NCBI RefSeq assembly: GCF_003946245.1
Contig: NZ_RHNN01000016.1
Location: forward strand, 1-64,000
From: Levilactobacillus cerevisiae
GTDB lineage: Bacteria > Bacillota > Bacilli > Lactobacillales > Lactobacillaceae
Reading direction: 5' to 3'
DNA: 64,000 bases
This document shows, piece after piece, positions 15,345 through 20,617 of this stretch. The translations under genes and the position numbers were made by a program. Numbering within the stretch: position 1 is the stretch's first letter; every line of letters begins with the position of its first letter. The notes beneath the pieces were generated by a model. That model did no database searches, was not told the DNA's origin, and saw only the letters and a program-made list of their open reading frames with translations.

Positions 15345-16045
15345 GCGTTCCGCCTGCGGCTGACAGACACGGGTACCCTGTGAGGAACGCCTCCAGCCTG
15401 GGGAGCGGTCTTCCGGCTCGCCTTTAAGCCGGTAACCCACCGTCTCAAAGGTCGTCCCGTGCTGTAAGGCCGGAAAAAATCATCCGGTCTAACAACACCG
15501 ACACAGGGATACCCGTATCTGTCCTCCTCCGGCTCCACTCATATCGGCCCCCACCAAAAAAATGCTAAATCGGTGACGGTCTTGGTCCTGTTTGGTTAGT
15601 TTTATGATTTTCTTTCCAGACTGAGAAGCGGTCTTCCAGCTCGCCCTTAAGCCGGCAACCCACCGTCTCAAAGGGCGTCCCGTGCTGTAAGGCCGGAAAA
15701 AGTCATCCGGTCTAACACCACAGACACAGGGATACCCGTGTCTGTCCTCCTCCGGCTCCACTCATATCGGCCCCACCAAAAAAATGCGAAATCGGTGACG
15801 GTCTTGGTCTTGTTTGATTGGTTTTATGATTTTCTTTCCAAACTGAGAAGCGGTCTTCCGGCTTGCCTTTAAGCCGGTAACCCACCGTCTCAAAGGTCGT
15901 CCCGCTGTAAGGCCGGAAAAAATCATCCGGTCTAACACCACCGACACAGGGATACCCGTATCTGTCCTCCTCCGGCTCCACTTATATCGGCCCCACCAAA
16001 AAAATGCGAAATCGGTGACGGTCTTCGTCCTGGTTTTTTATGACT
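15345..16045. repeat. Family A tandem array of three units (R5)
   Basis: Three copies of a unit of about 220-223 bases (the word GGAGGAGGACAG on the minus strand recurs near 15530, 15753 and 15973). Each unit has CTTTAAGCCGG/CCGTCTCAAAG, GGCCGGA/TCCGGTC and the right arm CACAGGGATACCCGT. The matching left arm ACGGGTACCCTGTG occurs only once (about 15369-15382). Open frames here are repeat shadows. 16046-16140 holds nothing recognisable. Confidence 0.85.
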
Positions 16046-17180: not shown

Positions 17181-17894
17181 TTAAATCTGCGTGGTCGTTG
17201 CGCCGGGTTCGTCTTGTTGGCGAACGACGAGCTGGTTGTAGAACTTAGCCCGCGCCAAATCGTAGTACGGGTAAACGAACAGCCCAGCAATGTTAAACGT
17301 GATGGTCACCAGCATGAACCAGAGAATGAAGCTCAAATCCATGATGAACAAGAACGACTTGTTGCCATCCATCAGCCGGCGTGAAGCCGTAATCGCCTGG
17401 AGCGCCGACATTTGTTCGCCGCGGTCATACGCGTCTCTGTAAATGTAGAACGCTTGGGAATACGAATACGCCTTGATGATGCCGGGGAATACCAGCAGCA
17501 GTGACCACAGGGAAATGAAGATGGCGGACAGGATGCTGATGAAAATCCAGCCTAAGAAATATTGGCCCTTGTCAAACAGGGCAAAGCTGCGTTGAATGGG
17601 ATTGTCGAGGGTTGCCTTGCCCCGATCCAAATCGATCATGGTCAAGCGGGTCCCCATCCGCAACATTGCCGCAACGAAGAAGAATAACCCCGCGAAGGAA
17701 AAGAACCCACTGACGTTGAAATTGGCGCTGTTCTCGTTGATCCGTTCCGCCCAGTTAAGGTCTCGGGCGTCCATCGTCCCGCCAATCCACTGAAGCGCTA
17801 ACCATAAAATTGATAATAACAAATAAAATTTAAAATGGGTGGATATCTGTTCCTTGGCCCCTAATTTAAAGTTGACGCGATCTTGCTTGTCCAT
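17181..17894 (-). CDS. DUF975 family membrane protein
   Basis: About 237 residues with five or six hydrophobic segments: about 25-40, 70-90, 110-140 (LGWIFISILSAIFISLWSLL), then FPGIIKAYSYSQAFYI, the diagnostic DUF975 stretch, and a last pair ending FVYPYYDLARAKFYNQLV. The frame extends to 17954, but ATG at 17894 has GGAGGAG six bases upstream. The function of DUF975 proteins is not known. It is monocistronic between repeats and the divergent sulfotransferase gene. Confidence 0.8.
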   Translation of the reverse strand: MDKQDRVNFKLGAKEQISTHFKFYLLLSILWLALQWIGGTMDARDLNWAERINENSANFNVSGFFSFAGLFFFVAAMLRMGTRLTMIDLDRGKATLDNPIQRSFALFDKGQYFLGWIFISILSAIFISLWSLLLVFPGIIKAYSYSQAFYIYRDAYDRGEQMSALQAITASRRLMDGNKSFLFIMDLSFILWFMLVTITFNIAGLFVYPYYDLARAKFYNQLVVRQQDEPGATTTQI

Positions 17895-18047: not shown

Positions 18048-18076
18048 TTGTATTTCAGCGAATTAATTGCTAAAAT
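18048..18076 (+). promoter_or_regulatory. Promoter of the sulfotransferase gene
   Basis: TTGTAT (18048-18053), 17-base spacer, TAAAAT (18071-18076), followed by GAGGAG at 18116-18121. Confidence 0.7.
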
Positions 18077-18134
18077 GGCATGAGCACGCGTTCACCTTTC
18101 ACACTGGAATTTATTGAGGAGTTTTACATATATT

Positions 18135-19859
18135 ATGAAGAAGATTTGGAAAATTAGTCTCGGCGTCGTCCTCGCCTTGATCGTCATTGGTGGCGCCGCG
18201 GCCTATCATGAACGCCACAATGTGCGCCGACTGTTGCTGGTTCACCAGCATTATCAGAAGAAAAACGTCCTGTCGACCAATCAGATCAAGCTTAATTTAC
18301 GACCGGCTTTGTCGACCAAGAACACCACAGCCACCAACAAGATTACCGCGGGCTATCGTCAAGAATTGGCTCAGCTAACGACTGGTATCGATCACGCCAA
18401 GGTAATCGTTAACCCGTACGAGACCTCACCCCTGTCCGGCCTGATTTTAGTCAAAACACAGGCGGCGACCAAGGTGACCCTCACCGTCCACGGGGACACG
18501 CCCAAGACCACGCTGACCAAGCACCTCGCCGGCTATCACACCACCCACTCTGTCGGGGTCCTCGGGCTCTACGCCAACCGGACCAATCGCGTCACGCTGA
18601 CGTTTACCAAGAAAAATGGGCAGAAATCCTACGCCACTTACACCATGAAGACGGGCAAGGCGCCTAAGGAAATCGGTAAGAACACGCTGAAGACCAGCCA
18701 TCCCCAGAAAATGGCGTTGGGTAAGGGCAACACCCGGCTGACATTTGCCGTCTCCAGTCAGGGCACCACTTACGGCCTGGACGCGCAGGGTAAGGTACGC
18801 TGGTACAGTACGGCGCCCATTTCCCACGTTTTCAAGCGGCTGACCAATAACCACCTCTTGATTCTTACTAAGATTTCGGCTAGCGCGCACAAATATAACG
18901 CGCTGCGTGAAACCGATTTTTACGGTCGCGTTTATCGGCAATATAATTTTCAAGGCGAATTTCCGACCCGTAAAGATGCTAGCAAATTAGCAACCAACAC
19001 CGTGATTCACCACGATGCGATTGAACTGCCCAACCACAACCTCTTGCTCACGGTTGACGACGGGAGTTCTAAGTACGTGGAAGACACGATGATTGAAATC
19101 AACTACAAGACGGCGAAAATCGTTAAAGTCATCGACCTCAAACGGATCCTCCCCCGTTCGGCGTACACCCACTACACGGGGACGCACCGTTCCGACGGCA
19201 AGATTGACTGGTTCCACCAGAACTCAATGATCTACGATCCGCAACGTGACGAGCTGATTGTCTCCGGGCGAAATCAGGATATGATTTTTGCCATCAACTA
19301 CAAGACGACCAAGCTGCAGTGGATTTTGGCAGCGCCGGAAAAACTCCCGCAACGTTACCAATCCTACCTCTTGACGCCGACCACCAAGAACTACCGTTAC
19401 AACGGTGGCCAACACGCCGTCAACATCATCCACACGCGTAAGAACAAGGGCGAATCCATCGCGCTCGAATTTTACGACAACAACGTTCCCGTTACCCGGG
19501 GGAAGACCAAGCAATCCAAGAAATGGTCGGCCGGCGAAATTGTTTCCATCGACCAACTGAAGTACACGGTCACTAAGAGCTGGAGCTTCGGTAAGTCGCT
19601 GGGGCAACGCAACTTCACGAACATCGTCGGCAGCAGCTATGCCGTCGGGCGCCACAACACGTTGATTGGCTTCGGTTATGCCAGCAACGGGAAACGGAGC
19701 GAATTCGTGGAGGTCAATCGCAAGACCAAGCAGATTGTCTTTGACGTCAACCGCACGCATTTCAAACACGGCGATTGGAGCTACCGCGCACAGCGGATGG
19801 CCCTGTATCCGGGCAGTGCGAACGTTCAGCTGTCACAGATTAAGTCAACCACTAAGTAA
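18135..19859 (+). CDS. Membrane-anchored aryl-sulfate sulfotransferase (AssT family)
   Basis: About 574 residues with an N-terminal signal anchor (about 4-22) and a large extracytoplasmic domain. PAPS-independent arylsulfotransferases move sulfate between phenols through a sulfohistidine on a beta-propeller. The active-site set is visible: His in TVIHHDAIELPNHN (about 293), His in KIDWFHQNSMIYD (about 361), Arg in IVSGRNQD (about 379) and His in GGQHAVN (about 427). The 18-residue distance between the second His and Arg is as in Escherichia coli AssT. An N-terminal beta-rich domain (residues about 60-180) precedes the propeller. ATG 18135 is preferred over TTG 18114, which lies in the ribosome site. 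No sulfatase or DsbA/DsbB-like partner is adjacent, and the protein has no disulfide cysteines. Confidence 0.8.
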   Translation: MKKIWKISLGVVLALIVIGGAAAYHERHNVRRLLLVHQHYQKKNVLSTNQIKLNLRPALSTKNTTATNKITAGYRQELAQLTTGIDHAKVIVNPYETSPLSGLILVKTQAATKVTLTVHGDTPKTTLTKHLAGYHTTHSVGVLGLYANRTNRVTLTFTKKNGQKSYATYTMKTGKAPKEIGKNTLKTSHPQKMALGKGNTRLTFAVSSQGTTYGLDAQGKVRWYSTAPISHVFKRLTNNHLLILTKISASAHKYNALRETDFYGRVYRQYNFQGEFPTRKDASKLATNTVIHHDAIELPNHNLLLTVDDGSSKYVEDTMIEINYKTAKIVKVIDLKRILPRSAYTHYTGTHRSDGKIDWFHQNSMIYDPQRDELIVSGRNQDMIFAINYKTTKLQWILAAPEKLPQRYQSYLLTPTTKNYRYNGGQHAVNIIHTRKNKGESIALEFYDNNVPVTRGKTKQSKKWSAGEIVSIDQLKYTVTKSWSFGKSLGQRNFTNIVGSSYAVGRHNTLIGFGYASNGKRSEFVEVNRKTKQIVFDVNRTHFKHGDWSYRAQRMALYPGSANVQLSQIKSTTK

Positions 19860-19863
19860 ATGA

Positions 19864-19902
19864 AAATCACCCCCGGCAAACGCTGCTGGAGGTGATTTTT
19901 TT
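19864..19902. terminator. Shared terminator of convergent genes
   Basis: ATCACCCCCGGCA pairs with TGCTGGAGGTGAT, then TTTTTTT on the plus strand. It lies between the convergent sulfotransferase gene and the secreted-protein gene and overlaps the latter's last codon. Confidence 0.75.
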
Positions 19903-20617
19903 AGACTTTGATATTTTCCATTTGCCGAATACGCAGTTGACTTGCGCGATAGATTTTCGTCTCCTGCTTGGTATGCGTTTTAGCTTTCCGGTAATCGGCC
20001 ATAAACTGCTTTACCCGAATGATTTTCTTGGACCAGCTTGGCTGCAGGACAACCAAGTCTTTACCCACTCGCGTCGCATGCTTTTCTTGCTTAATCAGAC
20101 TTTTACTGGCAAATACGCGATTGGCTCGTGCCGCCGCATGCCCCGCGACAATCGTATTCTCACTAAGCTTCTGCATTGCCTTTTCTGGAAAAATCCGTTC
20201 CGCCCAAACCTTCGTATTCGACGCCATCACATACGCATTATCCAACAGATCATCCATGACTAAGTCTTTGGCAAATTGTCCCGTTTGATACTGCCACAAG
20301 GTTCGGCTATGGGCAACTAGCTTTTTATTCTGGTACGCTTTCATTTCCAAACCGACACCATCCAGCTCTGGATTGATCTGTGCCAAAAAATGATATTGCT
20401 TCCCGGGTTCTCGTTGAACAAATGACACGACACAGATTCCCGATGTCTTCTTCACCAGAGTTTGAAACTGATACCCCTGTGCTCGGAATAGTTTACCGAT
20501 TGGGGCACTATCCTGTGTATCAATCACGTTGCGGGTCTTGGCCTGCGCCGTGATGGTTCCCGTAACTCCTATTAGGACTAACAAACTCGTAATCAAAAAT
20601 TTTTCACTAACTCTCAC
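19901..20617 (-). CDS. Secreted hypothetical protein
   Basis: About 238 residues with a Sec signal peptide (VSEKFLITSLLVLIGVTGTI) and likely cleavage after AQA. The mature part is basic, with one cysteine (SGICVVSF) and a C-terminal Lys/Arg-rich helical region (YRKAKTHTKQETKIY). GTG at 20617 has GGGGAG six bases upstream and is preferred over GTG 20626. No family was recognised. It is convergent with the sulfotransferase gene; a functional link is not shown. Confidence 0.65.
   Translation of the reverse strand: MRVSEKFLITSLLVLIGVTGTITAQAKTRNVIDTQDSAPIGKLFRAQGYQFQTLVKKTSGICVVSFVQREPGKQYHFLAQINPELDGVGLEMKAYQNKKLVAHSRTLWQYQTGQFAKDLVMDDLLDNAYVMASNTKVWAERIFPEKAMQKLSENTIVAGHAAARANRVFASKSLIKQEKHATRVGKDLVVLQPSWSKKIIRVKQFMADYRKAKTHTKQETKIYRASQLRIRQMENIKV

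Follow-up and report, generated by a model that had tools for sequence, protein, structure and literature searches.

We found that a 64,000-nucleotide stretch of DNA from Levilactobacillus cerevisiae (hereafter the window) encodes what is, judging by homology, probably a cell-surface, membrane-anchored, PAPS-independent arylsulfate sulfotransferase (ASST). The open reading frame begins with ATG, occupies 18135..19859 of the forward strand and encodes 574 amino acids (ORF list and Pfam). Its product matches the Pfam families Arylsulfotrans (PF05935, E = 4.8e-84, 283 bits against a cut-off of 24.2) and Arylsulfotran_N (PF17425, E = 7.9e-22), which confirms it as a member of the PAPS-independent arylsulfate sulfotransferase family PF05935 and, together with an AssT-like predicted fold, bears out the class assigned in the preliminary description. 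A search of NCBIfam returned no match above cut-off. The enzyme type is already known, and the window protein adds a member from food bacteria. ASST genes are carried by many easily grown food lactobacilli. What bacterial ASTs do for the cell is a general question, and a locus that joins PAPS genes to ASST in Lactiplantibacillus and Pediococcus makes this question testable.

To locate the active site we aligned the protein with AssT of E. coli (sequence from PDB 3elq), the only ASST of tested activity knowingly included in our sequence alignments. The corresponding residues in the window protein are H293 (19011..19013; E. coli H252), H361 and N363 (19215..19223; H356 and N358), R379 (19269..19271; R374) and H427 (19413..19415; H436), all on the forward strand. 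None of the five varies among the 100 aligned rows (87 from Lactobacillales/Listeria and 13 clostridial, some being the same gene from two collections). The three histidines and one arginine reported earlier are thus all in place. In E. coli AssT, H436 is the residue that becomes sulfated during catalysis. Its position was ambiguous by phmmer and profile alignment because of the E. coli cysteine loop; the wider MAFFT alignment including clostridial rows paired it with H427. Most likely the enzyme would follow a ping-pong mechanism like that of E. coli AssT, in which an aryl sulfate outside the cell would sulfate H427 and depart as the free phenol, and an outside acceptor, a phenol or another hydroxyl, would then take the sulfuryl group, the sulfate being held by H293, H361, N363 and R379. 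The available portion of a 2026 review also lists T501 in the E. coli active site (PMC13426309). This threonine aligns with V498 of the window protein, and isoleucine or valine is found in 98 of 98 rows with a residue at that position, clostridial ones included. The residue following the catalytic arginine is asparagine in 75 of the 87 Lactobacillales/Listeria rows, whereas the remaining 12 and all 13 clostridial rows have histidine; asparagine instead of histidine at this position might alter specificity.

An AlphaFold2 model built from 36 sequences (mean pLDDT 87.8, pTM 0.87) begins with a helix at residues 3-36, which some 50 residues separate from two domains. The fold, as predicted by this model rather than solved, is an Ig-like domain followed by a beta-propeller, which correspond in Pfam to PF17425 (residues 90-174, 18402..18656, forward strand) and the catalytic PF05935 (residues 190-551, 18702..19787, forward strand). 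Residues 3-36 (18141..18242, forward strand) form, by predicted secondary structure and sequence, a single-helix membrane anchor with no lipobox, so that the protein is most likely signal-anchored at the cell surface, consistent with the earlier placement outside the membrane. Foldseek ranked nine AssT chains first and Cpz4 of Streptomyces (PDB 9kf4/9kf6) tenth. With VIA-align, AssT entries gave Z scores of 28.1-28.3 over 433-440 residues at an rmsd of 2.9-3.2 (28.3 to 3ets/3elq), Cpz4 entries gave 26.3 and 25.9, and other proteins followed at 19.8 or less. E. coli CFT073 AssT (PDB 3elq, 3ets, 3ett, 4p04-4p07) shares the Ig-like and beta-propeller layout and the five matched residues, yet is only 22-23% identical over the structural alignment. 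The window protein further differs from it in being signal-anchored, in its Gram-positive host, in the valine at the T501 position and in lacking the Cys418-Cys424 loop. Indeed, it contains no cysteine, the E. coli C418/C424 pair lying within that missing loop, and DsbA (PF01323), the sole thiol-oxidase family covered, is not matched anywhere in the genome. In both respects it departs from the enterobacterial (Cluster I) AssT type, and the earlier statement that disulfide machinery is missing agrees with this search. The missing cysteine pair was likewise correctly noted, but it is hardly odd: in the text available of the 2026 review, a disulfide has apparently been confirmed for just one published enzyme, that of E. 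coli (PMC13426309).

The preliminary description had singled out such an enzyme in a lactic acid bacterium; the distribution of the family shows that it is not unusual there. PF05935 is present in 31 of 35 Levilactobacillus genomes, 30 of which have two or three matches, and in 89 of 301 sampled Lactobacillaceae genomes (77 with at least 180 bits and 12 with a weak match only, E 1e-10 to 1e-21; three matches listed for this sample contain a stop codon). At the level of the phylum, 30 of 398 sampled genomes carry it. The family and order samples were evenly drawn, incomplete and overlapping. Given this prevalence in genus and family, we rejected a rare acquisition. A plasmid- or phage-borne origin was rejected too, since tblastn hits to 13 plasmid and 9 phage-collection records were all below 60% identity and the locus, with its DUF975 neighbour, is conserved across the genus. 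The genome of the window itself encodes a second ASST (G000:C2:132772-133878), 41% identical to the first over 507 aligned positions and carrying a lipobox, and therefore holds both a signal-anchored and a lipoprotein form. At six Levilactobacillus loci (L013, L014, L017, L019, L020, L011) the window-type gene is preceded by a further, lipoprotein-type ASST in tandem. Elsewhere (L098:46-3744; G636:C2:168551-171349) an apparently double ASST is encoded, with PF05935 matched twice in one long open frame.

Named loci at 68-88% identity to the window protein belong nearly all to Levilactobacillus, and the Levilactobacillus rows of its type have 72-88% identity and an intact active site. The ASSTs of Pediococcus parvulus and Secundilactobacillus malefermentans are 68% and 65% identical to it, respectively. 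The tree, a quick, midpoint-rooted reconstruction that carried warnings for long branches and letter make-up, comprised 120 rows after removal of 12 of 132 as identical. It excluded ORFs shorter than 400 aa and the operon-associated ASST of one genome (G130), and included 5 of the 13 clostridial rows and 8 lipoprotein-type loci of the genus. Lactobacillales/Listeria rows grouped apart from clostridial rows with support of 100. Within the tree the window protein fell in a group of 30 rows from Levilactobacillus, Pediococcus and Secundilactobacillus (support 100), separated from all remaining rows by a branch of 1.31 changes per column; it may therefore act on substrates unlike those of the enzymes tested so far. 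Signal anchors are not confined to this clade, one example being the operon ASST of a Lactiplantibacillus (locus L142). The Cluster II clostridial enzyme DhAST of Desulfitobacterium hafniense belongs to the same family and likewise to Bacillota; its sequence was not knowingly among the aligned clostridial rows. It sulfates phenols and alcohols, according to the available part of the review (PMC13426309). The long branch would also suit an ASST descendant that has lost catalysis or serves only in binding, as would the literature searched, which left subscription papers largely outside and in which we found no assay of an ASST from a lactic acid bacterium. In the accessible text of two reports (PMC11576661, PMC11468790) the enzymes tested came from other bacteria and the word Lactobacillus is absent. 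Nevertheless, we regard loss of activity as decidedly improbable, since the four catalytic residues and N363 are identical in every row. For the same reason the protein is not placed in a non-catalytic branch, an outcome that the preliminary description had named as one refutation.

If the window protein is an active transferase, it requires a sulfate donor. ATP sulfurylase (PF01747, a profile blind to the CysDN type, E. coli giving no match) was detected in none of 35 Levilactobacillus genomes including that of the window, and APS kinase (PF01583) in none of the 15 Levilactobacillus genomes listed, among them that of the window, for which 12 of 50 first-look candidates were scored. PF01507, which covers PAPS reductase or CysD, also gave no match in the window genome, so that a CysD-type sulfurylase is disfavored as well. 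As no sulfate-activating enzyme was found there, the donor would, if the enzyme works like its family, most likely come from outside, as a ready-made sulfate ester from plant material, a host or other microbes. The Levilactobacillus enzyme thus probably depends on scavenged aryl sulfates made elsewhere.

The preliminary description had also remarked that no sulfatase accompanies the gene, and a search with PF00884 agrees. Two matches above cut-off were found in the genome, both long membrane proteins without the C-x-P/A-x-R motif, which we take to be LtaS-like; a third, below cut-off, is presumably phosphopentomutase-like. An arylsulfatase was rejected on this reading of the PF00884 matches, the only family searched. 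Since no clear arylsulfatase of this family is encoded, the ASST could itself be the route from phenol sulfates to free phenols, mainly desulfating or detoxifying them, with water or small acceptors taking the group from the sulfo-enzyme. We consider this improbable, as we saw no sign of altered discharge residues and as known family members transfer the group to acceptors, in the portion of the review available (PMC13426309). The same portion states that the natural acceptors of most bacterial ASTs are unidentified (PMC13426309).

In order to place the locus among its relatives, we compared the neighbors of 121 ASST matches at 110 loci, grouping them by BLAST, a clustering by which distant homologues may have been split. 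The neighborhood work took in 60 ASST places outside the genus and one further. Two arrangements recur across genera. In the first, found in Lactiplantibacillus and Pediococcus, a sulfotransferase-like gene, ATP sulfurylase, APS kinase and a DHH/NrnA-like (PAP-phosphatase-like) gene run into ASST (L142:1027-7350; also L135, L136, L139, L141, L144, L146, L147, L150, L154, L161 and L178). Gaps among the first four genes range from -38 to +34 nt, with 5 to 221 nt before ASST, and a CitMHS/DASS-type transporter gene lies after the operon in Lactiplantibacillus and before it in Pediococcus. The sulfurylase and kinase matches are clear (E = 5.5e-96 and 2.3e-70), and the DHH/NrnA-like protein, at 198 bits, falls short of the 350 required for NrnA. 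All 10 sulfotransferases scanned match Sulfotransfer_3 at E<=0.01, with that of L142 below the Pfam cut-off (23.1 vs 27 bits), and searching the PDB with a profile of the operon sulfotransferase gave no match at E<=0.1. Its conserved LGSGRSGTS and RNPxDVVxSN are presumably PAPS-binding motifs.

APS kinase and this operon coincide. Among 301 Lactobacillaceae, APS kinase with E<1e-60 occurs in 12 genomes (9 Lactiplantibacillus and 3 Pediococcus), other listed matches being at 3.3e-5 or weaker, and all 12 clear kinases sit at an ASST operon locus, the twelfth being that of G130. In the wider order, 4 of 395 genomes have APS kinase at E<=1e-30, all among the 12. Eleven operon ASSTs form one group with support of 100, a clade separate from that of the window protein (39% identity for the ASST of L142), which points to one or a few evolutionary events and not 12 independent ones. 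A comparable set is on record in L. plantarum: lp_1378-lp_1381 and lp_1385 encode sulfate-converting enzymes and an extracellular arylsulfate sulfotransferase, and their expression rises 5.3-16.9 fold in pineapple juice, according to the available text of the study, whose authors call the cluster unique to L. plantarum (PMC4895336). In our sample this gene set is present in 12 genomes, nine of them Lactiplantibacillus and the other three Pediococcus. From its gene content we infer that lp_1381 belongs to the operon ASST clade; like the window, the cluster has an ASST, and it adds the sulfate-activation genes that were not found in the window genome.

The authors of that study speculate, in the text available, that lp_1378-lp_1385 allow the bacterium to exploit sulfate from sulfated polysaccharides of plants (PMC4895336), from which one could propose that ASST helps to gather sulfur. 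This appears highly improbable to us. An ASST moves sulfate instead of freeing it, no PF01747 sulfurylase was detected in the genus of the window, and neither the 12 genomes with APS kinase nor that of the window yielded a clear PAPS reductase in the PF01507 search. Across these 13 genomes the search gave three weak matches, two of them above cut-off; of the three ORFs, we take two to be TilS-like and one MurC-like.

The operon instead resembles, in gene content, a sulfate relay described in Streptomyces, where PAPS-dependent Cpz8 sulfates a triketide pyrone that is then the donor for Cpz4, as given in the accessible parts of two reports (PMC6731281, PMC4257720). Cpz4, the closest structural match to the window protein after AssT, is PAPS-independent and uses a phenolic sulfate donor. 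It is fed by a PAPS-dependent enzyme, whereas the window genome is without detected ATP sulfurylase or APS kinase. By analogy, Lactiplantibacillus and Pediococcus would make PAPS, the cytosolic sulfotransferase of the operon would load a phenolic carrier and the surface ASST would pass the sulfate on. In the literature searched, with subscription papers largely outside it, we found no such relay proposed for lactic acid bacteria. Levilactobacillus, apparently making no PAPS, would use its signal-anchored ASST on the phenolic sulfates of such neighbors in plant fermentations. That lactic acid bacteria activate sulfate only for an outside-cell relay of this kind, with sulfuryl groups as goods shared between species, is a bold extrapolation that we offer as rather unlikely.

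In the second arrangement, ASST is accompanied by a permease of the FtsX type, an ABC ATPase and a response regulator at five Enterococcus loci (L030:375-6467, L031, L032, L049 and L051) and in Companilactobacillus sp. RD055328 (L033:2857-8793), with a different gene order in the two genera. A histidine kinase is present as well in the Companilactobacillus and, by clustering, at four of the five Enterococcus loci; the Pfam names are from L030. Sets of two-component genes with an FtsX-type permease and ABC ATPase are often tied to the cell envelope. This company is consistent with the same chemistry being directed at the bacterium's envelope (wall or lipoteichoic acid, exopolysaccharide or a surface peptide) and not at a free phenol, as are the anchoring of the enzyme outside the membrane, its presence in most of the genus and the preference of Cpz4 for a sugar hydroxyl as acceptor, the latter as stated in the available part of the review (PMC13426309). 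On the other hand, the two-component/ABC link was not seen at Levilactobacillus loci, and no wall-polymer gene was recognized by eye among the flanking ORFs, of which a minority was compared with family profiles. An envelope acceptor is, in our judgment, unlikely. Transfer from outside aryl sulfates to a phenol or other hydroxyl is the reading that we prefer for the window protein. The enzyme may act on phenolics of plants or a host, as the preliminary description suggested.

The ASST gene looks like a single-gene transcription unit. Its promoter (18048..18076, forward strand) consists of a -35 element TTGTAT (18048-18053), a 17-nt spacer and a -10 element TAAAAT (18071-18076) with an extended TG. 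The TTG of the -35 element and most of TTGCTAAAAT are kept in 20 aligned upstream regions (the window and 19 Levilactobacillus) that are mostly unconserved around them; a simple consensus promoter scan did not list this promoter. Direct reading identified a ribosome binding site, GAGGAG (18116..18121, forward strand), and an in-frame TTG lies upstream of the ATG at 18114. Downstream, an intrinsic terminator between convergent genes (19863..19905, forward strand; stem-loop 19873-19889 with a T-rich tail), whose stem-loop is extended by AAAATCACC/GGTGATTTT on direct reading, is common to ASST and the convergent gene.

Upstream, a divergent gene (17181..17894, reverse strand) encodes a DUF975 membrane protein (PF06161, E = 2.9e-23) that is the constant neighbor of ASST within the genus. 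Homologues were found at 31 of 81 fetched loci, some genomes being present twice, and the 30 listed all accompany a window-type ASST. Several further flanking genes are syntenic in the genus, among which no sulfur or phenolic gene was recognized by eye. The convergent gene (19901..20617, reverse strand; ORF list) encodes a secreted-looking protein that is not part of the enzyme. It had been left without a function earlier, and it matched nothing in Pfam or NCBIfam. Homologues with 32-34% identity occur beside ASST in Levilactobacillus at 4 of the 81 fetched loci beyond the window's own. Finally, a unit of about 220 bp is present in three tandem copies at 15392-16040, upstream of a gene whose product looks like a regulator of the GntR type; over a 170-nt core, identity to the first copy is 92% and 64% for the other two.
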